The notes under the pieces are model-generated. The model was not told where the DNA came from. It did not search any database and was given only the letters and a program-made list of their open reading frames with translations. Below, one piece after another: positions 5,623 through 29,718 of a stretch of DNA of 35,015 nucleotides; position 1 is the first letter of the stretch, and each line of letters opens with the position of its first letter. Where the stretch lies: the NCBI GenBank assembly GCA_028293565.1, contig JAQGON010000008.1, positions 1 through 35,015 of the forward strand, in the 5' to 3' direction. The DNA comes from Verrucomicrobiota bacterium (lineage in GTDB: Bacteria; Verrucomicrobiota; Verrucomicrobiia; Opitutales; Opitutaceae). The translations under genes were made by a program, and so were the position numbers.

Positions 5623-5651
5623 GGGTGAAAGTCGAAGGGGGGGGTGGCGGA

Positions 5652-11442: not shown

Positions 11443-11626
11443 TCTTATGGGGGTGGTTTGTAGTTTCCGGTTTTGAATCCGCTCGCGCGGACTCAAGAAT
11501 CGGGAAAGGGGGAGGGGTAAAGAACGCGCTCCGCGCGGGGGAGCGGGAACCGTGGGGGGCAGGCAGGCCTAGAAAAGAGGGCGGGGGGACTTTGGCAAGA
11601 GAGTCTTTGCAGCTATTCTTGAATGA
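11443..11626. promoter_or_regulatory. Leader region between lacI and the TonB-receptor gene
   Basis: This 184-base gap separates two minus-strand genes and should hold the receptor promoter. It contains G-rich runs and GC-rich short hairpins, for example CGCTCC / GGAGCG near 11527-11545. An imperfect direct repeat of ACTTTGGC and TCTTTGC lies near 11590-11610. No copy of the TTTCAGAA/TTCTGAAA palindrome found before lacI is present, and I could not place a promoter with confidence. Confidence 0.35.
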
Positions 11627-12667
11627 TCACACGATCAATTGCTTCGCCGGCGTCATCGTGACCAGCGTTGGCGCGACCGTAATTCCGATCCGACCGATCG
11701 CTTGGGGGTTTTCAACCCGCCAAACCAGGTGGTCCACGACTTTGCGCACCAACGTTGGCAAGTTGATGTCGAGAGCGGCGGGGAGATGATCCAGATTATG
11801 GTAGATGACCGGATTATAATTTCCCAGGACGGCTTCGAAATCGCGCTCCGATTTGAGTCCGGCTTGACGGAGCGCGCGAAACAGCGAGCCGCAGAAGTGA
11901 TCCACTGGCATGTAGAGTCCCGTCGGCCGCGGCGTCGACTGCATCAGGCGGCGCACCAAGGTGTCGCTCTCCTCGTGGAGCGGGGTGATTTCGAGAAAAC
12001 TGGTTCCAGGACGCGTCTTGCCCAAAATATTGTGCACGGTCAGCCCAAGCTCCTTCGCGCGCTCGCCGAATGCCTTCACCCGCCAGGCGACGGCGCTGTA
12101 CCCGGGATCTGTCGAAATGACCGCAAGAGTCTTGTGCCCCTTTGAATGAAGATAGTCGACGGCGAGGCGGCCATTAAGGTCGTTGTCGGGCTCGACGTAG
12201 TCGCCGGCGAAAGTCGACGTGCGGCGCGTCATGAACCAAACGTGGGGCATTTCCCCTAATTTCTGAAGGCACGCAGGGGAGGGCTCCATTCCTTGAATGA
12301 CGACTCCATCGACCTGCCGCTCGGCCAGCATCCGCGGCAAGTCGTCCGGCGTGTCGGAGAAAAGCACGCTCAATTCAATGCGCTGGCGTTCGTTCGCCGG
12401 CTGGATCTGAAGCAGGTGGTCCTGGAACCAGTTTGTGCTGGAAGTCTTTTTCGCGCCGACAAACCAGACCGCGATCTTCTTCGGAGCGGCGAGACGGGAC
12501 TTCGGTCCGCGCCGCCGATGGAGCGGCGTGGGAGTATAATTCACCGCCGTCATCACCGCCTGGACGCGGGCGAGCCGGTCCGGAGCGACCAGATGTGGCT
12601 GATTAATTACGCGGGAGACCGTGGCCGGGGAGACTTTGGCCCGGTGGGCAATATCGGCAATGAGCAT
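11627..12667 (-). CDS. LacI-family transcriptional regulator
   Basis: DNA-binding repressor of 346 residues from the ATG at 12667. The N-terminal helix-turn-helix (about 1-46) has DIAHRAKVSPATVSRVINQ, the classic LacI recognition-helix pattern, and an RLARVQAVMTAVNYTPTPLH hinge region. A periplasmic-binding-like effector domain follows (from about 65), with FSDTPDDLPRMLAERQVDGV and DYLHSKGHKTLAVISTD. Its ligand is presumably a sugar released by the neighbouring glycosidases. It lies between the isomerase-like gene and the TonB-receptor gene on the same strand. A TTG codon further upstream would extend it by 12 residues but is less likely. A near-perfect palindrome overlaps its leader, suggesting autoregulation. 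Confidence 0.92.
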   Translation of the reverse strand: MLIADIAHRAKVSPATVSRVINQPHLVAPDRLARVQAVMTAVNYTPTPLHRRRGPKSRLAAPKKIAVWFVGAKKTSSTNWFQDHLLQIQPANERQRIELSVLFSDTPDDLPRMLAERQVDGVVIQGMEPSPACLQKLGEMPHVWFMTRRTSTFAGDYVEPDNDLNGRLAVDYLHSKGHKTLAVISTDPGYSAVAWRVKAFGERAKELGLTVHNILGKTRPGTSFLEITPLHEESDTLVRRLMQSTPRPTGLYMPVDHFCGSLFRALRQAGLKSERDFEAVLGNYNPVIYHNLDHLPAALDINLPTLVRKVVDHLVWRVENPQAIGRIGITVAPTLVTMTPAKQLIV

Positions 12668-12689
12668 TGGCTGGGGGTGGGCCGTGAAC

Positions 12690-12712
12690 GTTTCAGAAAA
12701 CAATTCTGAAAC
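12690..12712. promoter_or_regulatory. Palindromic candidate operator upstream of lacI
   Basis: A perfect nine-base inverted repeat GTTTCAGAA / TTCTGAAAC is separated by five bases (AACAA) and centred at 12701, 34 bases before the lacI ATG. It is AT-richer than its surroundings. Size and position suit a dimeric regulator such as the LacI protein encoded just downstream. LacI sites often have a central CG; this one lacks it, so another regulator or an RNA hairpin is possible. Confidence 0.5.
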
Positions 12713-13648: not shown

Positions 13649-13736
13649 ATGAAAATTCAGGGAAAATGCTGATTGAAATGCTGAATAAAGCAGTTCCATG
13701 CTGGGACCTCTCTCCTCGGGAGACAACCCCTTAAAT
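13649..13736. promoter_or_regulatory. Divergent promoter region, isomerase / catabolic operon
   Basis: This 88-base, AT-richer spacer separates the minus-strand isomerase gene from the plus-strand operon. It contains two direct copies of AAATGCTGA (13664-13672 and 13676-13684) and a flanking inverted ATTCAG (13655-13660) / CTGAAT (13681-13686). The CTGAA half-site also occurs in the palindrome before lacI. TTGAAA at 13673-13678 could be a plus-strand -35, but the matching -10 is poor. Confidence 0.45.
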
Positions 13737-15665
13737 ATGCTTCTGAATCCGGTAAAGCGCCGCAGCATCATGGTTTTGATGACGCTGTTGATGGGGGTGC
13801 AGGGCACTCTCGCAGGGGCGGAGGCGGGAAGGTTATCCGACGCCGAGATTGCCCGCCGTTTTCAGGATCGGCGGCGCGAGGTCCTCGACAGTTCGGTTGC
13901 AGCCGTCAATGCCGCCGATCTGGCGAAGGGCGGCTATTTCGATGTCGCGGCATGCCTGCAGCGCGGCGAACGCGTGGATGCGGCGCTGGCCCGGTTTGCC
14001 AAAATCACGGCGCCCATGCCGACCGAGAACATGTTTTGGATGTTCCCGATGGTCTCGGTCATGATGGCGGGCGACCGGAATCTCGATGCGCGGGCGCGGG
14101 CGCGGATCGCAGAGTTGTGGCGGACCTACTGGCCGAGCCGCGGCGACACCGAGAACCACTGGGCGATGTATTATTCCACGCTCTACCTGGCCGCGCAGTC
14201 CTATCCCGGCGCCGGGCCGGAGAAGTGGTTCAACGGAAAATCCTCGGCGGAGAACATGGCGGAGGCGCGGAGTTACCTCGAGCACTGGATCTCGATCACG
14301 ACCTCGATCGGGCAGGGGGAATATGATTCTCCCAACTACCTCGAGGAATACGTCGTCGCGCTGTGCCTGCTTTCCGGCTGGGCCGACGATCCCGGGCTGA
14401 AGCACCGGGCGCACATGCTCCTTGATTATATGATCTACGACTATGCCGTGGAATCGCTGGAAGGTTATTACGGCGGGGCCCACAGCCGGGTTTATCCGAA
14501 GCAGATCATCGCGCCCGGACAGACGCCGGCGATGGCGCTCGGATGGCTCCTCTTCGGTTTTGGCGAACGGCAGGCCAACGGCACCGTGCAGCTGCTGGCG
14601 CTGAGCGGCTATGCTCCGCCGCCGATCCTGGAACGCATCGCGCGCGATCGCGATCGTCCCTATGTCGAGCGCGAGCTGAAACGAACGCGGTGGCGGATGC
14701 GCAACGCCGGCCCGGAGTCCATCGCGATCGGCGACAAGCGCACCGTGCCGGTATATAAATACAGCTATGTCGACCACGATTTCATCCTCGGCTCGACGCA
14801 GGGAGGATTGCTTCAGCCGATCCAGCAGCAGACCTGGAGCCTGATCTGGCGGACCGGCCTTCCGGCGACCAAGGCGGCGAATACTTTCTTTGGACTCCAG
14901 CCGTATTCCTCGCCGGTGGAGGGCACGATGTACTTCGGCGGGGACTGGGACACGCTCACCGACATGATCGCACGCTCCAAGCGGGATTACGACACGCCGG
15001 ACAAGCTTCCCGGCGGCTCCCCCTTCGAGCAGGTTTTTCAGCAGGGCGCGGCGCTCGTGGCGCTGTATGATATTCCCGAGGGGACGCGTTTCCCGCTCGT
15101 GACGGTTTTCTTTTCGCGGGATTTGAATAACACCGACGAGGATGCATCGGGCTGGATCTTCGCCCAGGGCGGACCGGCCTACCTGGCTTACCGTCCATTC
15201 GCAGCGGGCGAATGGAAACCCAATGACTGGACGGGATTGTTCCGATCCGGCGACGCGGGCTGGGTGGGCCCGGGTTTTTCGGAATGGGGCACGGGACACC
15301 GCTGCTATGTCAGCGGCGCCCTGCGGAACGGTTACGTCGTCCAGGTCGCGCCCGCGCGGAATTTTCCCTCCTACGAGGCGTTCAAGTCGGCGGTGCGGGC
15401 CCTGCCTTTGAAATTCGCGACGAGTCCTGCGCCCGAAGCGACGTTCACCACGCTGGACGGCACGGTGCTGCACGTGAAATACGGCGCGCCTCCGCAGGTG
15501 AACAAACGGCCGGTCGATTTTTCCGCATGGCCGCTTTTCGAAAGTCCCTTCGGCCACGCGAAGCGCGGCAGCCACCAGCTTGAAATCGTGCACCGCGGAG
15601 AGCGCCTGCTCCTCGATTTCCAGCGCAACGCGAGCGAGCAATCGGCGCTCCCGGCCCAGCCATGA
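13737..15665 (+). CDS. Secreted toroid-like protein A, uncharacterised (candidate polysaccharide lyase/hydrolase)
   Basis: Exported 642-residue protein of unknown function. The signal peptide is basic KRR, core IMVLMTLLMGVQGTLA, cleavage near AGA. The first about 330 residues are helix-rich and resemble an alpha/alpha toroid, with conserved blocks RGDTENHWAMYY (135-146), NGKSSAEN and HWISITTSIGQGEYDSPNYL. The second half is beta-rich with repeated aromatic strands, including SGWIFAQGGPAYLAYRPF. This two-domain layout resembles heparinase/alginate-lyase-type enzymes, but I recognise no named CAZy family. A paralogue lies at 24246-26156 and shares these blocks. The stop overlaps the next start by ATGA. 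A TTG or ATG nearer the signal core (13770) is an alternative start. Confidence 0.8.
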   Translation: MLLNPVKRRSIMVLMTLLMGVQGTLAGAEAGRLSDAEIARRFQDRRREVLDSSVAAVNAADLAKGGYFDVAACLQRGERVDAALARFAKITAPMPTENMFWMFPMVSVMMAGDRNLDARARARIAELWRTYWPSRGDTENHWAMYYSTLYLAAQSYPGAGPEKWFNGKSSAENMAEARSYLEHWISITTSIGQGEYDSPNYLEEYVVALCLLSGWADDPGLKHRAHMLLDYMIYDYAVESLEGYYGGAHSRVYPKQIIAPGQTPAMALGWLLFGFGERQANGTVQLLALSGYAPPPILERIARDRDRPYVERELKRTRWRMRNAGPESIAIGDKRTVPVYKYSYVDHDFILGSTQGGLLQPIQQQTWSLIWRTGLPATKAANTFFGLQPYSSPVEGTMYFGGDWDTLTDMIARSKRDYDTPDKLPGGSPFEQVFQQGAALVALYDIPEGTRFPLVTVFFSRDLNNTDEDASGWIFAQGGPAYLAYRPFAAGEWKPNDWTGLFRSGDAGWVGPGFSEWGTGHRCYVSGALRNGYVVQVAPARNFPSYEAFKSAVRALPLKFATSPAPEATFTTLDGTVLHVKYGAPPQVNKRPVDFSAWPLFESPFGHAKRGSHQLEIVHRGERLLLDFQRNASEQSALPAQP

Positions 15666-16663
15666 TCCGGCGTCTTTCCTTTTTTCTCCTGCTCGCCGCC
15701 GGCCTCCGCGCGGCTCCGGAGCCGGTTTCGACCCATCGCTTTTACGCCGCGGTGGGGATGACCAAGGCGCAGAAAAACACTTCCACGCCGCTCGATTCCG
15801 GGATCTACCTGCGGGGGGAGGATGGCAAGTGGACGCTTTTCGGCCCGCGAATTCTCGGCGTGACCAGCCTGGCAATGAGTCCCGCAGACTCCCAGGTCTT
15901 GCTGCTCGCGAGCGCCGACGGCATCGTGCGCACGAACGATGGCGGAAAGTCGTGGCGGAAAGTCACGGGCTGGGAGGTCGCCGACGTCCGCAGCATCGTC
16001 TTTGACCCGCGCGATCCGCGAAAGGTCTATGCGGCGACGACGTGGGGTCCGCTGCGGTCCGAGGATGGCGGCGACACTTGGGCGCTGGCGGAAAAGGGTC
16101 TGACCAAGCTTTATTGCCAGACGATCGTCGCGGACACCGCGCGTCCGGGCCGGGTTCTGCTCGGCACGGAGGACGGCGTCTATCTGTCGACCAACCGCGC
16201 GGCTTCCTGGCGCCGGGCTCGTTTCCCGACGGCATCGGTGCTTCGACTCGCGCAGAGCGCGGCTGATCCGAAGCTGGTGGCCGCGGTCACGCAAGGACAC
16301 GGGGCATGGCTTTCGCGGGACGCCGGGCGATCATGGAGCGCGACGGATTTGTCGACGGCCACGGCAAACCTTTATGCCCTCGCGCTCTCGCCGCACGATG
16401 CGGCGCAGATGGCGATTGGCGGGTGGGGCGCGGGCGTGCGCGTTTCGGCCGACGGTGGACAGAACTGGAGCGACCGGACCGCGGGGCTGCCTGCACGAAA
16501 CATCTTCGTCCTCGCGTTCGACCCGGACGCGAAGGGCCGCCTCTGGGCGTCCACTTTCGAGGAGGGGACATTCTATTCCGACGACCTTGGCGCGACGTGG
16601 CACGACGGCGGCCTCTATGGCGCCTACGCGTCGGATTTCGTTTTCCTTCCCGCGAGGCGCTGA
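15662..16663 (+). CDS. Secreted six-Asp-box beta-propeller protein A (BNR/sialidase-like)
   Basis: Exported beta-propeller of 333 residues with a short signal peptide (LSFFLLLAAGLRAAPE). Six Asp-box motifs of the SxDxGxxW type are spaced 37-48 residues apart: 91-98 (TNDGGKSW), 133-140, 176-183 (degenerate STNRAASW), 218-225, 262-269 and 306-313. This is the VPS10/YCF48/sialidase-like fold. No sialidase catalytic triad is evident, so a binding or scaffold role, or a glycan-lyase accessory role, is as likely as hydrolysis. Its start overlaps the toroid-protein stop (ATGA), so the two should be made together. The second propeller (23214) also has six boxes and stands beside the second toroid protein. 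Confidence 0.85.
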   Translation: MIRRLSFFLLLAAGLRAAPEPVSTHRFYAAVGMTKAQKNTSTPLDSGIYLRGEDGKWTLFGPRILGVTSLAMSPADSQVLLLASADGIVRTNDGGKSWRKVTGWEVADVRSIVFDPRDPRKVYAATTWGPLRSEDGGDTWALAEKGLTKLYCQTIVADTARPGRVLLGTEDGVYLSTNRAASWRRARFPTASVLRLAQSAADPKLVAAVTQGHGAWLSRDAGRSWSATDLSTATANLYALALSPHDAAQMAIGGWGAGVRVSADGGQNWSDRTAGLPARNIFVLAFDPDAKGRLWASTFEEGTFYSDDLGATWHDGGLYGAYASDFVFLPARR

Positions 16664-16686
16664 GCGCGTCCCCGAATTTTTTTCCC

Positions 16687-19125
16687 GTGCCCGAAAAACC
16701 TTTTGTCAATTCCGCCTCCTGGATCTGGTCCGCCGAGGGATCCCACTCGGCGCCTCCCCCCGAGGCGGCGACGCCCTCGCACTATCAGGTGCGCTATTTC
16801 CGGCGCAGTTTCGACGTCGACGAACCCGGCGCGGCGAGGCTGACGGTGCACGTGTCCGGCGACAGCCGTTATCTTTTTTTCTGCAACGGGACCCTGATTG
16901 GGCGCGGCCCGGCGAAGGGCGACGTGAACCACCATTTCTACGAGACGTTCGATCTGGCGCCGCAGCTGCGGCGCGGGCGGAACGTGCTCGCCGCGCTGGT
17001 GCTCGACATGTCGCGGGTGGCGCATCGTCCGGCGCTGCTCGGTCCGCCGTGTTCGGTGATGACCTACACCGGGGGATTCCTCCTCGAAGGAACCCTGCTG
17101 GCCTCGGGCGGCGCGGCGGCGGTTGACCTTCGCACCGACGGGACCTGGAAGGTGGCGGTCGACAAGGCGCACCGGTTTCAAAACGAAAACACCACCTTCG
17201 AGGGCTATCTCGGCTATTTCGAACACCGCATTTCGAAATTGATTCCGGCGGGATGGAATCTGGCTGAATTCGATGACTCGACGTGGCCGTCCGCCCACGT
17301 GCTGTTCAAGGCCGAGCTGCTGGAGAACCGGCGCGATCCGGCCAGCCCCTATGGATTGATGCCGCGGATGGTCCCGATGCTGGAGGAGACGGCGCCGGAG
17401 AAGTTCGCCGATGCCTTCCTCGCGGGCGGCGGACGGGTTTCTCCGGACTGGGATGCGCTACTGGAAAATCGGGGCGAGCTCACCCTGCCGGCCAATGCGA
17501 GCGTGAGCCTGGTCCTCGACGCCGGCATTCTTACGACGGCGTTTCCGCACGTCGAGGTGCGCGGCGGCGGCGGGTCGGTTGTCCGCCTCACCTATGCCGA
17601 GGCGCTGCGCCTTCCGTGGAACACCCCCGACGCGAAGCTCCTCGGGAAACAGCAGCCGCTGGCCAACCTCGCCTCGCATTTCGCCGACGAGAGCCGCGGA
17701 TGGACCTTCGACCGGCGCGGCGAGGTGACGGGCTGGTGCGACATCTGGGAGCCGTCCGGCCGCGAGGACACCTTCGAACCGCTGCACTGGCGGGCCTTCC
17801 GCTACGTCGGGCTCCAGATCAAGGTCGGCTCCGCGCCGCTGACGTTGCGGGGCGTGACGCACCGGTTCACTGCGTATCCCTATCGCATCGCCGCCACGTT
17901 CCAGTCGTCGGATGTTTCGCTCGACAAAATCTGGAACGTCGGCCTGCACACGATGCGGATGTGCTCGCACGAGACGTTCGAGGACTGCCCGCATTACGAG
18001 CAGATGCAGTATGCGGGTGACACGATGATCACGTCGAAAGTCGCGATGCTGACGACCGGAGATTATCGGCTCAGCCGGCAGGCGCTGTACCACTTCGACT
18101 GGTCGCGGCTGTCGGACGGGCTGACCCAGGCGCGATTCCCGTCGCGCCTCGTGCAGGTCATCCCGGCCTGGAGCATTCATTGGATCACGAATCTCAAGGA
18201 TTATTTCCACTGCAGCGGCGATGCGGCGACGCTGCGGGATCTGCTGCCCGGCGTGCGCGCGGTGCTGGACTGGTACCGGCGCCATGCCGACACGGAAGGG
18301 CTGCCGGCGCGGCTGCCCTATTGGAACATCACGGACTGGTGCCCCTGGTGGCCGCGCGGCGTCGTGCCCGGCGCGGACATCGGGCCGACATGCATTCATT
18401 CCGCGCAGTACATCAATGCCCTCGATGAAGCTGCGGGGCTGCTTCGCGAGAGCGGCGCAGCAGGCGAGGCGGACTCGCTGGCGCAGGAAGCCGCGGGCCT
18501 CCGCCGCCGCGCGCACGTGAAATTCTGGTCCGAGACCGAGGGACTTTATTTCGACCGGCCGGGCGGACCGGAGGTGAGTCAATATGGGAACGCCTGGGCG
18601 ATTGTCGCCGGTCTCGCGGGAGAACGGGAGCGCGCGATCATGCTCAAACGTTTTCCCCACGACGGGAAACTGGCGCCCGGCTCCTTTTTCTGGTGGCACA
18701 CCGGCTTTGCGGCGCTGGCGAAATGCGGCCGGGCGGACGAGATCCCGAAATATCTCGGCCCGTGGCACGAATCGATCGGGTATGGCCTGTCGACGTTCGT
18801 CGAGGAGAACAGCTACTGGCGCTCGCTCTGCCATGCGTGGAGCGCGCATCCGGTGCTGGAGTTCCAGCAGCGCATCCTCGGCGTCACGGCCACCGCGCCC
18901 GGATTCGCGAAAGTTCGCATCGCGCCGAACCGCTGCGGACTGGCGCACGCCGCGGGCAGCGTCTGCACGCCGCACGGGCTGATCGAGGTGGCGTGGCGTG
19001 TCGACGCGGGAAAATTCCACCTGAAGGTTTCGGCGCCGGCCGGGATCGAAGCCACCGTCGCGGGCCCCGACGGATCGGGCCGGACGTTCACCGGAAACTA
19101 CGAGGAGGCGTTTGCCCTCGCATGA
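16687..19125 (+). CDS. GH78-family alpha-L-rhamnosidase
   Basis: Hydrolyses terminal alpha-L-rhamnose. The 812-residue enzyme starts at GTG 16687, since no ATG lies between the previous gene and ASWIWSAEGS. The N-terminal beta-sandwich (about 10-200) has the rhamnosidase N-domain pattern YFRRSFDVDE and FCNGTLIGRGPAKGD. The alpha/alpha-barrel follows from about 410. Its catalytic block DCPHYEQMQYAGD places Asp433, Glu438 and Asp445 with the same spacing as the acidic residues of characterised GH78 enzymes. The later FVEENSYWRSL (Glu706/707) is the likely base. A C-terminal beta domain has ILGVTATAPGFAKVRIAP. There is no signal peptide, so the cytosol is expected. The stop overlaps the next start by ATGA. 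Confidence 0.92.
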   Translation: MPEKPFVNSASWIWSAEGSHSAPPPEAATPSHYQVRYFRRSFDVDEPGAARLTVHVSGDSRYLFFCNGTLIGRGPAKGDVNHHFYETFDLAPQLRRGRNVLAALVLDMSRVAHRPALLGPPCSVMTYTGGFLLEGTLLASGGAAAVDLRTDGTWKVAVDKAHRFQNENTTFEGYLGYFEHRISKLIPAGWNLAEFDDSTWPSAHVLFKAELLENRRDPASPYGLMPRMVPMLEETAPEKFADAFLAGGGRVSPDWDALLENRGELTLPANASVSLVLDAGILTTAFPHVEVRGGGGSVVRLTYAEALRLPWNTPDAKLLGKQQPLANLASHFADESRGWTFDRRGEVTGWCDIWEPSGREDTFEPLHWRAFRYVGLQIKVGSAPLTLRGVTHRFTAYPYRIAATFQSSDVSLDKIWNVGLHTMRMCSHETFEDCPHYEQMQYAGDTMITSKVAMLTTGDYRLSRQALYHFDWSRLSDGLTQARFPSRLVQVIPAWSIHWITNLKDYFHCSGDAATLRDLLPGVRAVLDWYRRHADTEGLPARLPYWNITDWCPWWPRGVVPGADIGPTCIHSAQYINALDEAAGLLRESGAAGEADSLAQEAAGLRRRAHVKFWSETEGLYFDRPGGPEVSQYGNAWAIVAGLAGERERAIMLKRFPHDGKLAPGSFFWWHTGFAALAKCGRADEIPKYLGPWHESIGYGLSTFVEENSYWRSLCHAWSAHPVLEFQQRILGVTATAPGFAKVRIAPNRCGLAHAAGSVCTPHGLIEVAWRVDAGKFHLKVSAPAGIEATVAGPDGSGRTFTGNYEEAFALA

Positions 19126-19982
19126 GCACGCTGCGACTCGAACACGACGCGGGAAAGGCGGTGGGCGTGTTCGCGGACAATTCCCTGCTCTGCCGTTACG
19201 TGTATGTCTCGGCCGAGGAGCCGAAGGAATCGCCGCGGCCCTATTTTCATCCGCTGAATTCGCTCGCCGGCGACACGCTGACGAATTTCCGCCCCAACGA
19301 TCATCCGTGGCACCACGGGCTCTCGTTCACGCTGACCCACGTTTCAGGGATAAATTTCTGGGGAGGCCCGACCTGCCGGCGCGAGGATGGCTACCAGCTC
19401 CGGGACGACCACGGCGAGCAGCGGCACACGGCATGGACGGAATGCAGCGCCGGTGGCAGCCGCGCGACGCTGGCCCATGCCCTGGAATGGCGGACGCCGG
19501 CCGAGAAAATTTTCCAGGAGGAACGCGAGATCGCGATCGCGGCGGATTCATCCGCGGGAACGTGGTCCTTGCGCTGGAAGGCCCGGCTGCGGAATGTCAC
19601 CGGCCGTGAGCTTTCACTCGGGAACCCGCACTCGTTCGGCGGCCTGCCGGGATCGCATTACACCGGGCTGCAGTTTCGCGGCGCGCGCGAGCTGCTCGAC
19701 GACCATCTCGATCCGACCATCCGGATTGTCGCGGAAGGCGGACTCGAGGGCGACAAGGCCGTGCACGGCGCCTCCGCGCGCTGGATGGAATGGCACGGGC
19801 AGCTGGATGAGACCTTGCACCGAGTGGTCCTGCGGTTTGAAAATAACCCGGGTCCGCTGCATTGGTTTGTCCGCCGCGGCTATCCGCTCGCGGCGTTTCC
19901 GCTCCAGTTCGACCAGGACCTGAAGATCGCGCCCCGCGCGACGCTCGAAGTCGATCACACGCTCACCTTCACCGCGGCATGA
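19122..19982 (+). CDS. PmoA/DUF6807-family protein
   Basis: A 286-residue cytosolic protein of the PmoA-like family (DUF6807), whose reaction is not established. Typical landmarks are RPYFHPLNSLAGD (about 40-52), the His-rich DHPWHHGLSFT (about 60-70), and NPHSFGGLPGSHYTGLQFRG (about 168-187). A C-terminal HWFVRRGYPL follows. Members of this family frequently accompany glycosidase genes in Verrucomicrobia and Bacteroidetes and may act on sugar or lactone intermediates. Start and stop are both ATGA overlaps with its neighbours, placing it firmly within the operon behind the rhamnosidase. Confidence 0.82.
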   Translation: MSTLRLEHDAGKAVGVFADNSLLCRYVYVSAEEPKESPRPYFHPLNSLAGDTLTNFRPNDHPWHHGLSFTLTHVSGINFWGGPTCRREDGYQLRDDHGEQRHTAWTECSAGGSRATLAHALEWRTPAEKIFQEEREIAIAADSSAGTWSLRWKARLRNVTGRELSLGNPHSFGGLPGSHYTGLQFRGARELLDDHLDPTIRIVAEGGLEGDKAVHGASARWMEWHGQLDETLHRVVLRFENNPGPLHWFVRRGYPLAAFPLQFDQDLKIAPRATLEVDHTLTFTAA

Positions 19983-21271
19983 ACGTCAACCGGAAGACCT
20001 TTCTCCGCCGCCTCGGCGCCGGCGCCCTCGGGTTGATGGCGACGCGCGGGTGGGCGGAGAGGGACGACGGATCCCCGTCGGCGGCGACGCCGGTCTGGAA
20101 CGGCGAGGATCCGGAGAGATTCTGGCGGCAGGTGCGCGCGCAGTTTCCGATGACGCCCGAGCGGATTTATTTCAACACGGGCGGGCTCGGCCCGGCGCCG
20201 CGGCGGGTGCTGGACATGCTGACCGTCGCCGGCCGGCAGCTGCAGGAGCGGGTCGAGACCGGGCACGATTCCTTTTCGCCGGCGCGCGCGATTGTCGCGG
20301 ATTACCTCGGCGCCAAGCCGGAGGAGATCTGTTTCGTCCGCAACACCACCGAAGGCACCAACATCGTGGCGAGCGGGCTGGCGCTGCAGGCGGCCGACGA
20401 GGTCATCTTCGAGTCCCATGCCCACCCCGGCGGATCGTTTCCCTGGCTCAACCGCCAGCGCGCCGACGGGATCGCGGTGAAGACCTTCGAGCCGGATCCG
20501 CAGAACGCCGCGGCCAACGTCGCGCGCATCGAGGCGCTGATCACGCCGCGGACCCGCGTGATCCAGGTTTCGCACGTGACGTCCCCGACCGGCATCGTCC
20601 TGCCCGTGCAGGCGATCGGGGAACTCGCGCGCCGTCACGATCTTTGGTTTCACGTCGACGGCGCCCAGTCCGCGGGGATGATTCCCGTCGACCTCCGCAC
20701 GCTCGGCTGCGACTCGTTCGCCACCAGCGGTCACAAGTGGATGGGCGGGCCGCACGAGACCGGCGTGCTGTGGATCCGGTCGGACCGGATCGAGCGGATC
20801 ACTCCGCGGCAGGTCGGCGCTTATTCGAGCGAGGACATGAATCTCCGGAATCCGGGCCCGTTCGTCTACAGCCCCGGGGCGCACCGCTACGAATACGGCA
20901 CGCGCAACGCCGCCTCCGTGCTCGCGCTGGCCGAGGCCGTCCGGTTCCAGAACGAGATCGGACGCGAGCGGATCGCGGCACGCGGCCACGCCCTGGCGGA
21001 ACGCGTCCGGGCCGGGCTGGAAAAAATCGACGGCGTGGACGTGCTGACCCCCAGGGATCCCGCGTCCCGCGGGTCGATCATCACGTTTCGCACGGCGAAG
21101 GTCGGCTACCAGGCGCTCTTTGGACGGCTGCTCGGAGATTACCGCCTTCGCTGCCGGCCGGTCTCGGAGGTCGGGCTCGATGCGACGCGGGTTTCGACCC
21201 ATCTCTTTAATTCCCCCTCGGAATGCGACCTCCTCATCGGGGCGCTCGATGAAATCCTGAAAAAAACCTGA
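19979..21271 (+). CDS. Tat-like-exported class V aminotransferase-fold PLP enzyme 1
   Basis: Fold-type I PLP enzyme of the class V group (isopenicillin-N-epimerase/cysteine-desulfurase-like), 430 residues. The N-terminus NRKTFLRRLGAGALGLMA is a twin-arginine-like signal (RK rather than RR) with cleavage near GWA. The catalytic core shows VRNTTEGTNIVASG (phosphate site), ESHAHPGGS, the PLP-ring aspartate in FHVDGAQSAG and the Schiff-base Lys253 in TSGHKWMGG. All key residues are intact. Its nearest functional precedent is PvdN, a Tat-exported class V enzyme of Pseudomonas, which supports a periplasmic PLP reaction. It starts by ATGA overlap and is followed after 42 bases by a paralogue. Confidence 0.87.
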   Translation: MNVNRKTFLRRLGAGALGLMATRGWAERDDGSPSAATPVWNGEDPERFWRQVRAQFPMTPERIYFNTGGLGPAPRRVLDMLTVAGRQLQERVETGHDSFSPARAIVADYLGAKPEEICFVRNTTEGTNIVASGLALQAADEVIFESHAHPGGSFPWLNRQRADGIAVKTFEPDPQNAAANVARIEALITPRTRVIQVSHVTSPTGIVLPVQAIGELARRHDLWFHVDGAQSAGMIPVDLRTLGCDSFATSGHKWMGGPHETGVLWIRSDRIERITPRQVGAYSSEDMNLRNPGPFVYSPGAHRYEYGTRNAASVLALAEAVRFQNEIGRERIAARGHALAERVRAGLEKIDGVDVLTPRDPASRGSIITFRTAKVGYQALFGRLLGDYRLRCRPVSEVGLDATRVSTHLFNSPSECDLLIGALDEILKKT

Positions 21272-21313
21272 CGCCTCCGGCCGTTTCTCCTACCGCGGCC
21301 GCGCCTCCCCATC

Positions 21314-22606
21314 ATGCCCTTCGATCGCCGGACTTTTCTTCAAAACGCGGGCGTCGCCGCATTCGCGGCGGTTGCGATCCGCCGCCTTGGCGCGGCTCCG
21401 GTCCCGACCTCGCTGGTGCCGGCGCTGCCCCGCTTCGATGCGTCGCATCCGGACGCTTTCTGGGCGGCCGTCCGCGCGCAGTATCCGCTGCGCGACGATC
21501 CCGTCTATTTGAACTGCGGCGGGCTGGGGCCGACGCCGCAGCCCGTATTGAACACGGTGTTCGAGACGATGACGGCGATGCAGCAGCATTCCGAGCCGGA
21601 GCATCCACAGCATGTCGATCCGGCGCGGAAAACCATGGCGCGCTTCCTGGGCGTGGAACCCGCGGAGATCTGTTTCGTGCGCAACACGACCGAGGGAAAT
21701 TCAATCGTGGCCGCCGGACTCCGACTTCAGGCCGGCGACGAAGTCATCTTTGAATCCCACGCTCATCCCGGCGGATCCTACCCGTGGTTCAACCAGGCGA
21801 AACAGCGCGGGATCGTCGTGCGGCTGTTCGAGCCGGACCACGAGCACGCGGAGGGCAACGTGGAGCGGATCCGGACGCTGATCACACCGCGCACGAAGGT
21901 GATCCAGGTCAGCCATCTCACCTGCACCACCGGCCTGGCGATGCCGGTGCGCGCGATCGCGGCGCTCGCGCAGGCGCACGGGATCTGGTTCCACATCGAC
22001 GGCGCCCAGTCGGTCGGGATGATTCCGGTGAACATCGACGCGATCGGCTGCGATTCGTACGCGACGAGCGGTCACAAGTGGCTCGGGGGCCCGCATGAAA
22101 CCGGGATATTCTATCTGCGGCGCGCGCGGCTCGAGGAAGTCGCCGTCCCCGAGATCGGCTCCTATTCGGGCGACCTCCCTTTTCTCCCAGGAACCATCGC
22201 GCTCGAGCCGTCCGCGACGCGCTTTGAATACGGCACGCGCAACCTCGGTCTCATCGCCGGCCTCGAAACCGCCGTGCGTTTCCAGGAGGAGATCGGGCGG
22301 GAGCGGATCGCGGCCCATGGCCATGAGCTCGTGTCGCGGCTGATCGACGGAATTTCCGGCGTCGACGGAATCGAGATCCTGACGCCCCGCCTCGATGCGA
22401 TGCGCGGGTCGATGGCGACGATCCGCCACGCGCGCGCGAACCCCGGCCGGCTCACGGGTTACCTGCAGAAAAAACACCGCCTTCGCTGCCGGCCAGTCGG
22501 CGAACAGAAACTCGAGGCGGTGCGGATCTCGTTCCACGTGTTCAATTCGGCCGCCGAATGCGACCGGGTGATCGCCGCCGTCCGCGCTTCGGCGCGCGAT
22601 CTCTGA
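21314..22606 (+). CDS. Tat-exported class V aminotransferase-fold PLP enzyme 2 (tandem paralogue)
   Basis: Second class V PLP enzyme, 430 residues, clearly homologous to its upstream neighbour (roughly half the residues identical by eye). Its N-terminus FDRRTFLQNAGVAAFAAVAI is a good twin-arginine signal (RRTFL, hydrophobic core AAFAAVA, cleavage near LGA). The active-site blocks are present: VRNTTEGNSIVAAG, ESHAHPGGSYPW, FHIDGAQSVG and Schiff-base Lys255 in TSGHKWLGG. The two enzymes differ in the middle loop (the PLP-distal region after HKW) and at the N-terminus, so they may recognise different substrates. It is the last plus-strand gene before the convergent ridA-like gene, 15 bases away. 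Confidence 0.87.
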   Translation: MPFDRRTFLQNAGVAAFAAVAIRRLGAAPVPTSLVPALPRFDASHPDAFWAAVRAQYPLRDDPVYLNCGGLGPTPQPVLNTVFETMTAMQQHSEPEHPQHVDPARKTMARFLGVEPAEICFVRNTTEGNSIVAAGLRLQAGDEVIFESHAHPGGSYPWFNQAKQRGIVVRLFEPDHEHAEGNVERIRTLITPRTKVIQVSHLTCTTGLAMPVRAIAALAQAHGIWFHIDGAQSVGMIPVNIDAIGCDSYATSGHKWLGGPHETGIFYLRRARLEEVAVPEIGSYSGDLPFLPGTIALEPSATRFEYGTRNLGLIAGLETAVRFQEEIGRERIAAHGHELVSRLIDGISGVDGIEILTPRLDAMRGSMATIRHARANPGRLTGYLQKKHRLRCRPVGEQKLEAVRISFHVFNSAAECDRVIAAVRASARDL

Positions 22607-22621
22607 ACGATGACGCCGACC

Positions 22622-23152
22622 TCAATCCGCCACTTCGGCGACCAGCTCGATTTCCACCGGTGCGCCGCCGGGCAGGGACGCGACCCCGACCGACGCGCGC
22701 GCGTGCCGGCCCCGCTCGCCGAAGACGGCCACGAAAAGGTCCGACGCGCCGTTCACCACCTTCGGCTGGGCGCCGAATTCCGGAGTGCAGTTGACGAACC
22801 CTCCCACCCGGACGATGCGCGTGACCCGCGAGAGCTCTCCGATCTCGGCCTTGAGCGCCGCCAGGAGCTGCAGTGCGCACAGGCGCGCGGTGTTCGCGCC
22901 CTCCGCCTCGGTCATGTCGCGCCCGATCCGGCCCGCGATGATTTTTCCATCGGGTCCGCGCGCAATCTGGCCCGCCAGGAACACCAGCCGGCCGGAGCGC
23001 ACGGCGGGCACGTAATTCGCGATGACCGCGGCGGGCGCGGGCAGGGCCAGGCCGAGCTCCTGCAGTTTCCGCTCGGGCGAAACAGTTTCAGCGGCGGCCG
23101 CGAAGGACGCCAGCCCTCCAGCCAGCCACAGGGCGATCAGGATGTTTTTCAT
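22622..23152 (-). CDS. RidA/YjgF-family protein with signal peptide
   Basis: RidA-family imine/enamine deaminase or binding protein of 176 residues. RidA normally works in the cytosol, hydrolysing 2-aminoacrylate and similar products of PLP enzymes. Here ATG 23152 is followed by MKNILIALWLAGGLASFAAAAE, a clear signal peptide with an Ala-x-Ala cleavage site, so the protein should be exported. The RidA core has LVFLAGQIARGPDGK, GRDMTEAEGANTARLCA and the conserved ARASVGVASLPGGAPVEIE. The Arg before SVGV is the expected substrate-binding Arg. It is convergent with two Tat-type PLP enzymes, the natural partners for an exported RidA. The ORF extends upstream to 23248 but the basic 32-residue extension would bury the signal. 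Confidence 0.88.
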   Translation of the reverse strand: MKNILIALWLAGGLASFAAAAETVSPERKLQELGLALPAPAAVIANYVPAVRSGRLVFLAGQIARGPDGKIIAGRIGRDMTEAEGANTARLCALQLLAALKAEIGELSRVTRIVRVGGFVNCTPEFGAQPKVVNGASDLFVAVFGERGRHARASVGVASLPGGAPVEIELVAEVAD

Positions 23153-23213
23153 GGGGTGATCGAATAAACCCGCTCCTCTCTCCCGCCGCAATTCCCGAAC
23201 CGTTTCCTTTTTC
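23153..23213. promoter_or_regulatory. Divergent promoter region, ridA-like / second operon
   Basis: This 61-base spacer between the minus-strand ridA-like gene and the second plus-strand run must carry both promoters. No clear -35/-10 elements or palindromes were seen. Confidence 0.3.
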
Positions 23214-24230
23214 ATGCGCAAACTTTCATTCGTGTTCCTCGCCCTCATGTCGGCCGCCGCCGTGCGCGGCGCCAGTCCCGCGGCCCGGCATGACCTTTAT
23301 CTCTGCGCGGCGGTCAACAAGGGCTACGTCATCGGCTCGGCGATCGTGACGATGAACGGATTGTTCCTTCGGGACGAAGCCGGCGGGTTCCGGCACATCG
23401 GGAACAACGACACGAGCGTCCGCGGCGCGGCCTTCGATCCCCGCGACCGCCGGGTGATTTATCTCGGGGCCAACAACGGCTGCTGGCGGAGCCTCGACGG
23501 CGGGGAGAGCTGGCGCATCACGACGAGCTGGGACATGACCGAGCCTCCGGACGTCGAGGTCGACCCGAACGCGCCCGACCATGTTTACCTGGCGCTTCCG
23601 GACGGCGTTGCCGTCTCGTCGGACCGCGCGCAAACCTGGCAGCGGCGCGAAACGGGCCTCCCGGCGCGCGGCAAGTACACGCAGGTCATCTCGGTCGACC
23701 GCACGCGGGCCGGTCGCGTGCTGGCGGGCTGCGAATCGGGAATCTATCTGACCAACGACGGGGGGGAGCGCTGGCGGCGGGTTCTGCCCACGGAAACGAC
23801 GGTCAACGACCTTCAGCAATCGCCCCACGATCCGCGGCTCTGGCTGGCGGCGACCCAGAGCAACGGCGCCTGGTTTTCGCGCAACGGCGGCAAGGCCTGG
23901 GAAAAAATCGCGGCCTTCCAGGGCGGCGAGACGCTTTACAACGCGGCGTTTGATCCGACCAATCCGAAACGGCTCGCCATCGGGAGCTGGGCGCTGGGGG
24001 TGGTGACTTCCGAGGACGCCGGCCAGACCTGGGTGGCCCGCAATGCCGGCCTCCCGGAGTCGCACCACGTGTGGCGAATCGCGGTCGATCCGGATTCCGG
24101 CCGGCTGTACGCGAGCGTGCTCGAGGAGGCGCTCTATTGCTCCGACGATTTTGGGCGCACGTGGAAATCGGGCGGGATGGAAGGCTCGGTCGTCAGCCGT
24201 TTCGTGTTCAGGCCGGCGGCGGCGAAATAA
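23214..24230 (+). CDS. Secreted six-Asp-box beta-propeller protein B (BNR/sialidase-like)
   Basis: Exported propeller of 338 residues, signal peptide KLSFVFLALMSAAAVRGA. Asp boxes lie at 93-100 (SLDGGESW), 135-142 (degenerate SSDRAQTW), 180-187, 222-229 (SRNGGKAW), 266-273 and 310-317. Their number, spacing and degenerate position match propeller A at 15662-16663, so the two are paralogues with the same layout, though the sequence has diverged. Shared segments include RNAGLPE versus RTAGLPAR and SDDFGRTW versus SDDLGATW. No catalytic triad is evident. It precedes the second toroid-like protein by 15 bases, the reverse of the order in the first module. Confidence 0.85.
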   Translation: MRKLSFVFLALMSAAAVRGASPAARHDLYLCAAVNKGYVIGSAIVTMNGLFLRDEAGGFRHIGNNDTSVRGAAFDPRDRRVIYLGANNGCWRSLDGGESWRITTSWDMTEPPDVEVDPNAPDHVYLALPDGVAVSSDRAQTWQRRETGLPARGKYTQVISVDRTRAGRVLAGCESGIYLTNDGGERWRRVLPTETTVNDLQQSPHDPRLWLAATQSNGAWFSRNGGKAWEKIAAFQGGETLYNAAFDPTNPKRLAIGSWALGVVTSEDAGQTWVARNAGLPESHHVWRIAVDPDSGRLYASVLEEALYCSDDFGRTWKSGGMEGSVVSRFVFRPAAAK

Positions 24231-24245
24231 TCCGGATCTCCCGCC

Positions 24246-26156
24246 ATGAAAAAACTCGTTTTTCTTCTCCTCGCCGCTTCGCTGCTGCCCATCGCGGCCC
24301 ACGCCCAGCCGGCCTTCAGCGGGCCTCCACCATCGCGGGCGGTGGTCCAGGACGCCGACCGGCGCCGCGAGGAATATTTCAGCCGGATCGACGAAGCGCT
24401 CGCCTGGAAGGCCGCGTCCGTGAAATTGGACACGCCCGAGGCGATCATGAAGATGAAGGACATGAGCGCGATCGCGGCGAAGCTCGTGCGTCGCGAGGAC
24501 GTGGCGGGCTGTTCGGCGGCGGTCATCGAAATCATGAAGACGCCCTCGACCGGCCCCTTCTGGATGTTTCCGGTCGCCTGCGTCGCGTACACCGGCCGCG
24601 ACCTGCTTTCGCCCGAGGCGAAGGCGGCGATCCGCCAGGCGTGGCGCTCGACGATGCAGCTGCGCGGGGACACGGAAAATCACTGGGCGATGTATTACGC
24701 GTCGCTTTACCTGATGTCGGAACTTTATCCGAACGAACCCGGCGACACCTGGTACACCGGCAAAAGCTCCGAGGAGAATCTCGCCGAATCGCGGGACTAC
24801 CTGATCCACTGGATGGACCTGATGACGACGGTCGGGCAAGGCGAATTCAACCCGACGGGATACCTCACGGAGTACGCGATTCCAATGGGGTTGATGGCGA
24901 CCTGGGCGAAGGACCCGGCGATGCGGCTGCGCGCGAGGATGACGCTCGACTGGCTGTTCGCGGACCTGGCGGCGAACAGCTTGAACGGCGTGCTGCGCGG
25001 CCCGCATGCGCGCACGACCGAGGATCCGGTGATGCAGCGCTGGAACGATCATGCGTCGTTCTACAACTGGCTCCTTTTCGGGAACACCCCGCCACCCGCG
25101 GGCTACGGCGGATTCGGAATCTATTTCGCGACAGTGGCCCGCAACTACGCGGTGCCCGAGGTGATCTACCGCATCGCCGTCGATCGTGATCGCGACTACG
25201 TGCAGCGCGATCTCAAGCGCTCGCGCCGGAGATGGCGGTACAGCGACGTCGAGATGGCGCCGATCTACAAGACGAGCTACCTGCGCCGCGATTATGCGGT
25301 CGGCTCTTACCAGGGCGGACGCGCCGATCCGATCCAGACCCATGTCTGGGACGTCACGTGGGCGGTCCCGGATCCGCGCGGCGCGCACAACACGATGTTT
25401 TCGAATCATCCGCATTCGTCGCCGGTGGACATGCAGATGTCGTTCACCGCGTATCCGGAGGCGATGATCCCCAATCTGGCGCGCGAAGGAAAACCGTCGT
25501 ACGACGAGCCCGACAAGATTCTTGGCGCCTCGCCGTACGAGCAGGTGTTCCAGGATCTCGATACGGTCGTCGCGCTTTACGACATCCCCGCCGGGGCGCG
25601 GCATCCCCAGGTCAATGGCTTCCTTTCGAAGGACCTGGTCGATCGCGAGGAGGACAAGTCGGGCTGGATTTTCGCGCGAGGCGGGAATGCCTTCCTGGCT
25701 TACCGGCCGCTGGCGGATTACACGCTGACGCCTTTTCGCGGCTACCATCAGCTGCCGTCTCCGGTCGGCTACAAATGGGAGCGCGTCGTCACCGGCGACA
25801 CGCTGCTCCAGAGCTTTCACCGGAAAAACGGCACCATCGTGCAGGCGGCGAGCGCGTCGGAGTTCGCGAGCTTCGATGCGTTCAAGCGGGCGATCCGCGC
25901 GCTTCCCCTTGAATTCAAACTTGAGCCGACCCCGACCGTGCGCATGAAAACCCTCCGCGGCAAACAGATCGAGGTCACCTATGGGAAAGCTCCCGTGATC
26001 GACGGCCGGCCGCTCGACTACGCGAAGTGGAAGCTGTTTGAAGGGCCGTATCTCAACGCCGAGAAAGGCTCGCGACGCCTGACCATCACCCACGGCCGGC
26101 TGAAGCGCGTTCTGGATTTCGCCACGCTGGCGGTGACGGATTCGGTCAGCCCCTGA
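24246..26156 (+). CDS. Secreted toroid-like protein B, paralogue of protein A
   Basis: Exported 636-residue protein of unknown function. A clean signal peptide (KKLVFLLLAASLLPIAAHA, cleavage near AHA/QP) is followed by a helix-rich domain with RGDTENHWAMYY (140-151) and GKSSEENLAESRDYLIHW. The stretch GQGEFNPTGYLTEY ends this set. A beta-rich half follows, with VVALYDIPAGAR, SGWIFARGGNAFLAYRPL and a C-terminal TITHGRLKRVLDF. The same blocks occur in protein A in the same order. The most distinct block is TENHW, a candidate active-site or glycan-binding motif. It is not a copy: many loops differ and a GG/PHARTT stretch replaces the GGAHSRVY of protein A. It precedes the GH51 gene, in the same operon. 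Confidence 0.82.
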   Translation: MKKLVFLLLAASLLPIAAHAQPAFSGPPPSRAVVQDADRRREEYFSRIDEALAWKAASVKLDTPEAIMKMKDMSAIAAKLVRREDVAGCSAAVIEIMKTPSTGPFWMFPVACVAYTGRDLLSPEAKAAIRQAWRSTMQLRGDTENHWAMYYASLYLMSELYPNEPGDTWYTGKSSEENLAESRDYLIHWMDLMTTVGQGEFNPTGYLTEYAIPMGLMATWAKDPAMRLRARMTLDWLFADLAANSLNGVLRGPHARTTEDPVMQRWNDHASFYNWLLFGNTPPPAGYGGFGIYFATVARNYAVPEVIYRIAVDRDRDYVQRDLKRSRRRWRYSDVEMAPIYKTSYLRRDYAVGSYQGGRADPIQTHVWDVTWAVPDPRGAHNTMFSNHPHSSPVDMQMSFTAYPEAMIPNLAREGKPSYDEPDKILGASPYEQVFQDLDTVVALYDIPAGARHPQVNGFLSKDLVDREEDKSGWIFARGGNAFLAYRPLADYTLTPFRGYHQLPSPVGYKWERVVTGDTLLQSFHRKNGTIVQAASASEFASFDAFKRAIRALPLEFKLEPTPTVRMKTLRGKQIEVTYGKAPVIDGRPLDYAKWKLFEGPYLNAEKGSRRLTITHGRLKRVLDFATLAVTDSVSP

Positions 26157-26174: not shown

Positions 26175-27674
26175 ATGCCCCGCCTCACCCTCCACGCCAA
26201 CGAAGCCGGTCCGGTCATCGACCGCCACATCTTCGGGCACTTTGCCGAGCATCTGGGACGGTGCATCTACGACGGGCTCTGGGTGGGCGAGACATCGGCC
26301 GTGCCGAATGTCCGCGGCTGGCGCGCCGATCTGGTCGCGGCGCTGAAGCAGATCCGCGTTCCGAACCTGCGGTGGCCGGGCGGCTGTTTTGCGGACGATT
26401 ACCACTGGCGCGACGGGATCGGTCCGAGGGACAAGCGCCCGCGCCGGATCAATGCGCACTGGGGCGGCGTGCTCGACGACAACGCGGTCGGGACGCATGA
26501 GTTCCTCGACCTCTGCGAGCAGATCGGGTGCGAGCCCTACCTCGCGGCGAACGTCGGCAGCGGCTCGCCGCGCGAACTCCGCGAATGGGTCGAATACTGC
26601 AACGCTTCCGCCGGCACGCTCGCCGACGAGCGCGCCGCCCACGGGCGTCGCCTGCCATGGAAGGTCCGCCTCTGGGGCATCGGCAATGAGGCGTGGGGCT
26701 GCGGCGGCAACATGACCGCCGAATACTACGCGGGCGAATACCGCCGGTTCGCGACGTATGCCCGCGATTTCCCCGAGGCGCCGCTGTACCGCATCGCCAG
26801 CGGGGCGGTGAATGACGATTTTCGCTGGACCGACGTCGTGATGCGCGATGCCTACAAGGGCCCGTTCAGCGGCACGGCCATGATGCAGGGACTTTCGCTG
26901 CATTTCTATACCGTGCCGGGGCCGTGGGAGACGAAGCCGACGGCCACGCCCTTCGATCACGCGGGCTGGAAGCTCGTGATGGCGACCGGCTGGAAAATGG
27001 ACCGGATCGTCCGCGGCCATCGCGCCGTGATGGACCGCTACGATCCGGCGGGGCAGGCCGCGCTCGTGGTCGACGAATGGGGCGCGTGGTACGCGACTGA
27101 ACCCGGGACGAATCCGGCGTTTCTTTATCAGCAACAAACCGTCCGCGACGCCGTCCTTGCCGCGCTCACCCTCAATGTGTTCATCAATCACTGCGAGCGC
27201 GTCCGGATCGCGAACCTCGCGCAGGTGGTGAACGTCCTCCAGGCGGTGGCGCTGACCGAGGAAAACGGCGGCCGGATGGTGCTGACGCCGACGTGGGAGG
27301 TGTTCGCGCTCTACGCGCCGCACCAGGGCGCGAGACGGCTCGCGCTGCACAGCGACGCAAAATTCTCGACGCACGAGGGGCTCGATTACCCGGAGGTTTC
27401 GGCCACGGCGTCTGCCGCGCCCGACGGATCGATCACGCTCACCCTGTGCAACACGGATCCCGCGGCGCCGGCGGAGATCGCGCTCGCGCTGACCGGGCGC
27501 CGGCTCGTCCTGGCCGACGCGCGCGTGCTCGCCGCGCCGGCGCTCACGGCGTGCAACACCTTCGACCAGCCGCGCGCGGTCGCGACGAAGCCCATGTCCG
27601 GCGTGCGCGTCGCGGGCGACACGGCGAGCTTTTCCCTGCCGCCGGGCGCGGTCGCGGCCTTGAGGTTCTCATGA
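26175..27674 (+). CDS. GH51 alpha-L-arabinofuranosidase
   Basis: Removes alpha-L-arabinofuranosyl residues from arabinan, arabinoxylan or arabinogalactan oligosaccharides. The 499-residue enzyme has no signal peptide, so it is likely cytosolic. The N-terminal barrel holds IFGHFAEHLGRCIYDGLWVG and NLRWPGGCFADDYHW, both GH51 signatures. The acid/base Glu172 lies in GIGNEAWGCGGN and the nucleophile Glu301 in VVDEWGAWY, as in characterised family members. The C-terminal beta domain ends after about residue 390. The stop codon overlaps the GH127 start by ATGA, linking the two arabinosidases translationally. Substrate specificity (1,2/1,3/1,5 linkages) cannot be told from sequence. Confidence 0.95.
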   Translation: MPRLTLHANEAGPVIDRHIFGHFAEHLGRCIYDGLWVGETSAVPNVRGWRADLVAALKQIRVPNLRWPGGCFADDYHWRDGIGPRDKRPRRINAHWGGVLDDNAVGTHEFLDLCEQIGCEPYLAANVGSGSPRELREWVEYCNASAGTLADERAAHGRRLPWKVRLWGIGNEAWGCGGNMTAEYYAGEYRRFATYARDFPEAPLYRIASGAVNDDFRWTDVVMRDAYKGPFSGTAMMQGLSLHFYTVPGPWETKPTATPFDHAGWKLVMATGWKMDRIVRGHRAVMDRYDPAGQAALVVDEWGAWYATEPGTNPAFLYQQQTVRDAVLAALTLNVFINHCERVRIANLAQVVNVLQAVALTEENGGRMVLTPTWEVFALYAPHQGARRLALHSDAKFSTHEGLDYPEVSATASAAPDGSITLTLCNTDPAAPAEIALALTGRRLVLADARVLAAPALTACNTFDQPRAVATKPMSGVRVAGDTASFSLPPGAVAALRFS

Positions 27675-29623: not shown

Positions 29624-29718
29624 AATCCTCCACGGCAAACGGGATTGTCTGCAGAGGCCGCGGCGGAAATCGAAACCGGAGGACGGCGCGGCTTCCCGCA
29701 TTGCGTCCGCTCGGAAAC

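Follow-up and report, generated by a model that had tools for sequence, protein, structure and literature searches.

Two TOR-PROP modules in an Opitutaceae glycan locus

A stretch of 35,015 nt from contig JAQGON010000008.1 of a Verrucomicrobiota bacterium of the Opitutaceae (hereafter the window; host genome of 4.16 Mb in 239 contigs) carries two modules, A and B, in each of which a gene for a predicted secreted, lyase-like protein (TOR) adjoins a gene for a predicted secreted Asp-box beta-propeller (PROP) (Table 1). A preliminary description of this DNA had pointed to two unrecognised secreted proteins sharing the blocks RGDTENHWAMYY, GKSSxEN, GQGE and SGWIFAxGG in the same order. The relationship was found to extend beyond these motifs, since TOR_A and TOR_B are homologous over nearly their full length, with 243 identities in 598 positions (41%, E 1e-141); PROP_A and PROP_B share 130 of 337 positions (39%, E 1e-70). 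Signal-peptide-like N-termini, judged by eye, were present on the TOR and PROP proteins.

The coordinates agree with the arrangement described earlier, an ATGA-coupled first pair and a reversed second pair. The TOR_A stop codon (15663-15665) overlaps the PROP_A ATG (15662) as ATGA, and the longest TOR_A open reading frame (ORF) begins at 13698, position 13737 being an internal ATG. In the B module the order is PROP then TOR, the end of PROP_B (24230) and the start of TOR_B (24246) being separated by a gap of 15 nt. This reversed order is also the rule in relatives, and a simple tandem copy of the module was rejected because the reversal is conserved.

Table 1. Positions of the paired genes and of their neighbours in the window
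Feature	Position	Strand	Description
TOR_A	13737..15665	+	Predicted secreted alpha-toroid and beta-domain lyase-like protein; Gln at the column of TOR_B His366
PROP_A	15662..16663	+	Predicted secreted Asp-box beta-propeller; ATGA-coupled to TOR_A
PROP_B	23214..24230	+	Predicted secreted Asp-box beta-propeller directly upstream of TOR_B
TOR_B	24246..26156	+	Predicted secreted lyase-like protein; candidate site Asn145, His146, Tyr206, Arg256, His366
TonB-dependent receptor	8227..11496	-	Pfam Plug; neighbour in relatives
LacI-type regulator	11627..12703	-	Pfam; neighbour in relatives
GH78-type alpha-L-rhamnosidase	16306..19125	+	Pfam Bac_rhamnosid6H; true start probably after 16663
Alpha-L-arabinofuranosidase, GH51-like	26175..27674	+	Pfam Alpha-L-AF_C
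GH127 beta-L-arabinofuranosidase	27293..29623	+	Pfam; true start probably later, because the ORF overlaps the GH51-like gene

Searches of Pfam, NCBIfam and PDB sequences with TOR_A and TOR_B gave no match of note, in keeping with their being called unrecognised, and Pfam scans gave no meaningful match among 21 TOR members and none in five further proteins. A TOR profile retrieved no lyase from all PDB sequences at E<=10, and sequence membership in the polysaccharide lyase (PL) families PL8, 12, 15, 17, 21, 33, 35 and 39, as represented by solved structures, was not found by the one profile-based method applied. Judged by sequence, TOR is a lyase-like family without a Pfam model, set apart from those PL families that have a PDB entry. 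With no Pfam entry for it, a possible key depolymerase goes unannotated in the glycan loci of the phylum. A/B-type TOR genes occurred in 67 of 150 sampled genomes of the bacterial family, and TOR relatives in 58 of the 387 genomes sampled from the phylum (E<=0.001); the loci with organism names were labelled Opitutae, Opitutaceae, Opitutales or Verrucomicrobia. Of 19 stretches in viral contigs that fitted a pattern, none was confirmed as a TOR relative. In the tree, TOR_A and TOR_B form a clade (support 1.0), and the addition of TOR_C gives another clade.

Pairing of the propeller with TOR

PROP is a dedicated partner of TOR. Across the 150 family genomes, it lay directly upstream of 86 of 90 full-length TOR_B genes and directly downstream of 43 of 48 full-length TOR_A genes when only the expected side was counted. 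Left out of these counts were seven partial TOR rows, distant TOR rows (about 30% identity) and PROP rows below about 320 bits, which were two fragments and Asp-box proteins of a generic kind; both source lists reached below these levels. When a PROP on either side was counted, 132 of 138 TOR genes had one and 129 of 131 PROP genes adjoined a TOR, a count that may credit a TOR in a tandem array with its neighbour's propeller, which the side rule avoids. The remaining two PROP genes (genomes G070 and G143) adjoin TOR fragments ending with their contigs. Nine TOR genes lacked a PROP on the expected side, and two of these belong to G132, one starting 120 bases from a contig end and the other lying beside a PROP fragment at a contig start. 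The other seven, among the 138 full-length TOR_A/B genes, have no propeller of their own although flanking DNA is present: three are second copies in tandem (one in G021 and two in G099, one of these with a stop), one is a TOR_B standing alone (G020) and three are TOR_A genes in tandem (G094). In the named loci (L073-L146), PROP_B was found directly upstream of 94 of 100 TOR_B genes, the six misses being two at contig ends and four in tandem arrays; since these loci and the family genomes share some contigs, the two counts are not independent.

The partners are also matched by type. Among 156 adjacent pairs, representing 128 distinct modules, 127 were B-B, 29 were A-A and none was crossed; the pairs were chosen by the side rule, hence the comparison probes type matching and not gene order. 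The A-A pairs are undercounted because, in the window, L036 and L043, an overlap filter hid PROP_A behind a GH78 query that was too long. In the PROP tree, one clade comprised exactly the 27 TOR_A partners. The TOR_B and PROP_B distances correlated at 0.82, in comparison with a mean of 0.58 (standard deviation 0.06) after shuffling partners within the 21 loci having several modules, and none of 1000 shuffles reached 0.82. Moreover, TOR_A and PROP_A were found fused in a single reading frame in four genomes, namely L060, L066 and L067 (3 of the 156 pairs checked) and L217; L218, a further candidate, was not fused.

Outside the family-level A/B set, 20 loci were fetched, 19 of which carried TOR_C or more distant relatives and no PROP-family propeller. 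The remaining one, L177, encodes a TOR_A-like protein and has such a propeller, which makes a single recruitment of the propeller, at the base of the A/B clade or before it, probable. The pair had previously been suggested to be an obligate unit. The partnership itself was borne out by the neighbourhood counts and the fusions, but "obligate" is slightly too strong for the enzyme, given the distant loci just mentioned and the seven propeller-less genes. Two loci are exceptions to the pairing rule: L051 (about 12813-19995) holds a tandem array of TOR_B genes, one of them split into two frames, and L068 (7828-13539) holds three TOR_A genes in tandem without propellers.

Predicted fold and candidate site of TOR

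An AlphaFold2 (AF2) model of TOR_B, built from a 70-sequence alignment, was obtained with pLDDT 93.6 and pTM 0.92. It consists of helices up to about residue 312 and mostly of strands thereafter, that is, a predicted N-terminal alpha toroid followed by a C-terminal antiparallel beta domain, the architecture of the toroid lyases. A Foldseek search of the PDB returned 15 chains at E<=0.001, all of them toroid lyases (heparinase III, alginate, xanthan, GAGase, PL33 and apo chondroitinase) or dermatan sulfate epimerase 1. With VIA, 60 of 993 chains reached Z>=8, and the best 50 of these 60 were all lyases or the epimerase; the best match was heparinase III (Z 10.8, 423 residues, rmsd 6.7 A). The model thus supports the term "toroid" used in the preliminary description and places TOR in the toroid-lyase fold class, at a large distance.

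The deep TOR alignment comprised 45 rows from 43 distinct proteins (L071 and L072 each appear twice), with L181, the second L186 protein and the short L185 piece left out. Asn145, Tyr206 and Arg256 were present in 45 of 45 rows, which reach distant relatives, Glu200 in 44, and His146 and Gln436 in 42 each. Conservation goes deepest at Asn, His, Tyr, Glu and Arg residues. The remaining column, 366 in the beta domain, depends on type: it is occupied by His in all 101 distinct TOR_B modules and in TOR_C, by Gln in all 27 TOR_A modules, and is mixed in distant relatives. All of these assignments were read from sequence. The histidine of the AHSR motif was dropped as a catalytic candidate, Asn occupying its place in 7 of 11 TOR_B rows.

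In TOR_B, Asn145 and Tyr206 are 61 residues apart, and Tyr206 and His366 are 160 apart. Computed from published residues (PMC12088678, PMC11848413, PMC12915356), the Asn-to-Tyr spacing is 53 to 63 in enzymes with a neutralising Asn (PL8 AC lyase, PL12, PL15 exoHep, PL17, PL23, PL33, PL35, PL39 and PL40), and the spacing from Tyr to the beta-domain His is 130 to 180 in families having such a His; other neutralisers are listed there for PL21, PL15 3A0O and PL8 ABC lyase II. The PL39 tyrosine is numbered 239 in one paper and 259 in PMC11848413, and 239 was used. A profile of 11 Hepar_II_III_N relatives, taken from 20 fetched loci, aligned weakly with TOR (probability 31%, E 5e-4 for a single comparison), pairing Asn145 with Asn and Tyr206 with Tyr. 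These lie 54 apart in the template, the spacing of the PL12 catalytic pair, and the alignment suggests a remoter sequence link of TOR.

TOR resembles PL12, PL15, PL17, PL21, PL33, PL35, PL39 and PL40 in its predicted alpha toroid followed by an antiparallel beta domain and in its candidate residues, which match the Asn (Asn-His in several), Tyr and beta-domain His of these families at similar spacing. It differs from them in showing no sequence-level match, in an invariant Arg 50 residues after the Tyr, in the Gln that replaces the beta-domain His in TOR_A and in its dedicated propeller partner. PL8 (chondroitin AC, hyaluronate and xanthan lyases) falls in the same fold class by VIA (Z about 9-10), and its Asn-Tyr spacing of 59 is close to the 61 of TOR. 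However, TOR has no Pfam match to PL8, and the PL8 His placed nine residues before the Tyr is Gly in 42 of 45 TOR rows. The PL27 rhamnosyl-glucuronate lyase, described as acting on gum arabic, likewise combines an alpha barrel with a beta-sandwich, but in the order beta then alpha, whereas TOR has alpha then beta. The earlier suggestion of a new polysaccharide lyase or hydrolase therefore keeps its first half, supported by the predicted fold and by the conserved Asn, His, Tyr, Glu and Arg, and a hydrolase is less likely.

Features of the propeller

A loose pattern found six Asp boxes in PROP_A and six in PROP_B plus one extra (DPDSGRLY), which was taken as a chance match; a strict pattern found five in each. 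The count of exactly six given in the preliminary description thus holds for the loose pattern once the extra box is set aside. Pfam BNR and Sortilin-Vps10 scored above cut-off in both propellers, and the NF045728 model (F510_1955 family glycosylhydrolase) gave 113.9 and 97.3 bits, below its 175-bit cut-off. The AF2 model of PROP_B (pLDDT 92.4) is all-beta except for a signal-like helix, and matches the propellers of GH74 domains, a putative BNR glycosyl hydrolase, Ycf48 and DAIP; in the sequence comparison GH74 was nearest, with Ycf48 and DAIP weaker. In GH74 enzymes the active site lies between two propellers in tandem, whereas the 338-aa PROP_B chain was modelled as one propeller, and a GH74-like reading of PROP was rejected for that reason. 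Ycf48 and DAIP are also single Asp-box-type propellers of about 310-340 aa and bind a protein partner; PROP differs from them in its partner, in its glycan-locus setting and in sometimes being fused to its enzyme.

Across 49 PROP sequences (the L095 propeller was left out owing to an internal stop), the invariant columns comprised 10 Gly, 5 Trp and 2 Asp and no His, Tyr, Arg or Glu. Such columns are what an Asp-box scaffold needs, and we infer that PROP has a binding role and is probably non-catalytic.

Proposed function and alternatives

The reading we favour, and consider reasonably probable, is that TOR is an exported uronate polysaccharide lyase acting by beta-elimination, that PROP is its dedicated, probably non-catalytic subunit, and that the A and B pairs are tuned to different linkages. 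Homology, predicted fold, residue conservation, pairing and fusion are the observations behind it; the lyase chemistry, the physical complex, the role of the propeller and the substrate are inferred. Asn145, with His146, would neutralise the uronic acid carboxylate, Tyr206 would act as the acid and, in TOR_A, probably as the base as well, and His366 would be the base in TOR_B, the glycan chain being cut by beta-elimination. PROP would bind TOR and present or clamp the branched glycan. Tyr is described as both acid and base for D-glucuronic acid in PL12, PL21 and PL33 (PMC11848413), so that by analogy TOR_A, with Gln instead of His366, could be a lyase all the same. The A and B pairs would be ancient paralogous units for different uronate linkages in a glycan that contains rhamnose and arabinose, and the GH78, GH51-like and GH127 enzymes of the locus would trim the side chains of that glycan. 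Given the fixed His/Gln switch, the earlier idea of two related substrates is plausible.

A bolder form of this proposal, which we regard as tentative, makes the propeller part of the substrate cleft or its gate, so that neither chain would be fully active alone. Following a single recruitment, the His-type (B) and Gln-type (A) pairs would have diverged in acid/base chemistry and uronate specificity, and the B pair would have multiplied up to three times per locus.

Several points weigh against the lyase-and-subunit reading. The TM-scores of the 15 Foldseek matches are modest (0.23-0.42 by query length), and the VIA scores of the best 50 of 60 chains (Z 8.6-10.8) are below the value of about 13 recommended by the tool when a model is mostly helical, which is why the similarity was ranked as same class at a large distance. 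Asn145, Tyr206, Arg256 and His366 form a candidate site by conservation and spacing, their shared cleft being an assumption. Among the window genes scanned, no unsaturated-uronyl hydrolase (GH88/105) was found, and a single weak-to-moderate GH88 match lies elsewhere in the genome (33.4 bits, cut-off 26.6). Linkage and co-duplication could explain part or all of the TOR_B/PROP_B co-evolution signal, and the four fusions, all of type A, may come from one event. Finally, PROP has near-invariant residues that would be compatible with a catalytic role, among them Arg101, Arg168, Arg276, Tyr125, Tyr155, Tyr242 and Glu174.

These last residues fit an unlikely alternative, in which PROP is not a subunit but a second enzyme, either a glycosidase or a lyase with a propeller fold, and works in sequence with TOR. 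Its nearest sequences and folds are GH74 xyloglucanases and the putative BNR glycosyl hydrolase, and propeller lyases and GH145 rhamnosidases exist. However, the single propeller is at odds with a GH74 site lying between two, no His, Tyr, Arg or Glu is fully invariant, and the protein-binding Ycf48 and DAIP are near as well, with weaker sequence matches; a subunit is favoured by the type-specific one-to-one pairing and by the fusions. It is quite improbable that PROP instead helps TOR to fold, be exported or assemble, in the way that Ycf48 serves photosystem II, without belonging to the working enzyme. One of the nearer structures is Ycf48, and one-to-one pairing would suit a private chaperone, but the fusions keep the propeller attached, and the seven TOR_A/B genes and 19 distant-relative loci do without it.

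As for TOR itself, we see little probability that it is a polymer-level uronate C5-epimerase, or another non-lyase enzyme sharing this fold, for which PROP would be the binding subunit. Among the Foldseek matches, human dermatan sulfate epimerase 1 ranks second, and it resembles TOR in fold and in the positions of Tyr and His; its His205-Tyr261 spacing of 56 is near the 60 of TOR His146-Tyr206. It is, however, an epimerase of glycosaminoglycan synthesis, whereas TOR stands in a catabolic setting with glycosidases and a TonB receptor, and the invariant Asn just before the His recalls PL39 and PL15 exoHep. A glycoside hydrolase on an alpha toroid scaffold is very improbable: GH127 and GH146 structures appear at Foldseek ranks 22 and 40, but at E 8.2e-3 and 0.27, far weaker than the lyases, on which ground a GH127-like reading was rejected, and the acids in columns at least 85% conserved are Glu200, Asp223 and Asp624, of which only Glu200 is near-invariant, so that no invariant carboxylate pair is seen in the deep alignment.

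In the favoured reading of a lyase with its subunit, the fold and the probable chemistry are already known, and the novelty is the dedicated propeller with type-specific pairing. No description of the TOR-PROP pair was found in the literature searched; to our knowledge, no partner propeller is known for PL8 or for dermatan sulfate epimerase 1, and we know of no other lyase to which a propeller subunit is dedicated one-to-one. Through the His/Gln switch and the natural fusions, the chemistry and the subunit hypothesis can both be tested directly.

Locus context and candidate substrate

The locus reads TOR_A, PROP_A, GH78, two class-V aminotransferase-like genes, RidA/YjgF (minus strand), PROP_B, TOR_B, GH51-like, GH127 and an M28 peptidase, an order that recurs in many relatives. 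Also on the minus strand is a gene whose product gives a weak TIM-barrel match that stays below cut-off. In 37 of 74 named loci, flanks of 6.5 kb or more were available to either side of a TOR_B; PROP_B was found in all 37 of these, GH78 in 26, GH127 in 17 and GH51 in 12, the 6.5-kb limit undercounting the outer genes. With the glycosidases in fewer loci, the propeller is the constant companion of TOR_B. Pairs without the locus glycosidases exist (L054, L059-L067), and L061 and L062 carry an M28 match.

The rhamnosidase and the alpha- and beta-L-arabinofuranosidases of the locus suggest a plant or green-algal rhamnose/arabinose glycan (e.g., arabinogalactan or a pectic side chain) as substrate, with a uronate as the cut site. 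The neighbourhoods of three isolated or rearranged pairs indicated no common substrate, L062 having Hepar_II_III_C and glucosamine-6-phosphate isomerase-like proteins, L054 GH39 and GH43, and L048 a GxGYxYP protein; L067 has none of these. In L062 (5228-16161), a TOR_A-PROP_A pair lies near Hepar_II_III_C, glucosamine-6-phosphate isomerase-like, S51 peptidase and BNR_2 proteins, hinting at an amino-sugar/uronate polymer in that lineage.

Other genes of the window deserve mention. An M28 family peptidase with a signal-like stretch is encoded at 29461-31137 (+) and found near TOR_B in 26 of the 37 well-covered loci; its recurrence may point to a glycoprotein substrate. Two class-V aminotransferase-like pyridoxal phosphate (PLP) proteins at 19862-22606 (+) have twin-arginine-like N-termini (RKTFLRRLG and RRTFLQNAG, by eye), and the adjoining RidA/YjgF protein at 22622-23248 (-) has a signal-like N-terminus. 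In a glycan locus it is odd to find an exported PLP enzyme together with an exported imine deaminase, and these genes recur in many relatives. At 2924-6512 (-), consecutive MmgE/PrpD, citrate synthase-like and phosphoenolpyruvate (PEP) mutase/isocitrate lyase-like genes form a row resembling a methylcitrate cycle for propionate, which may follow the breakdown of rhamnose.

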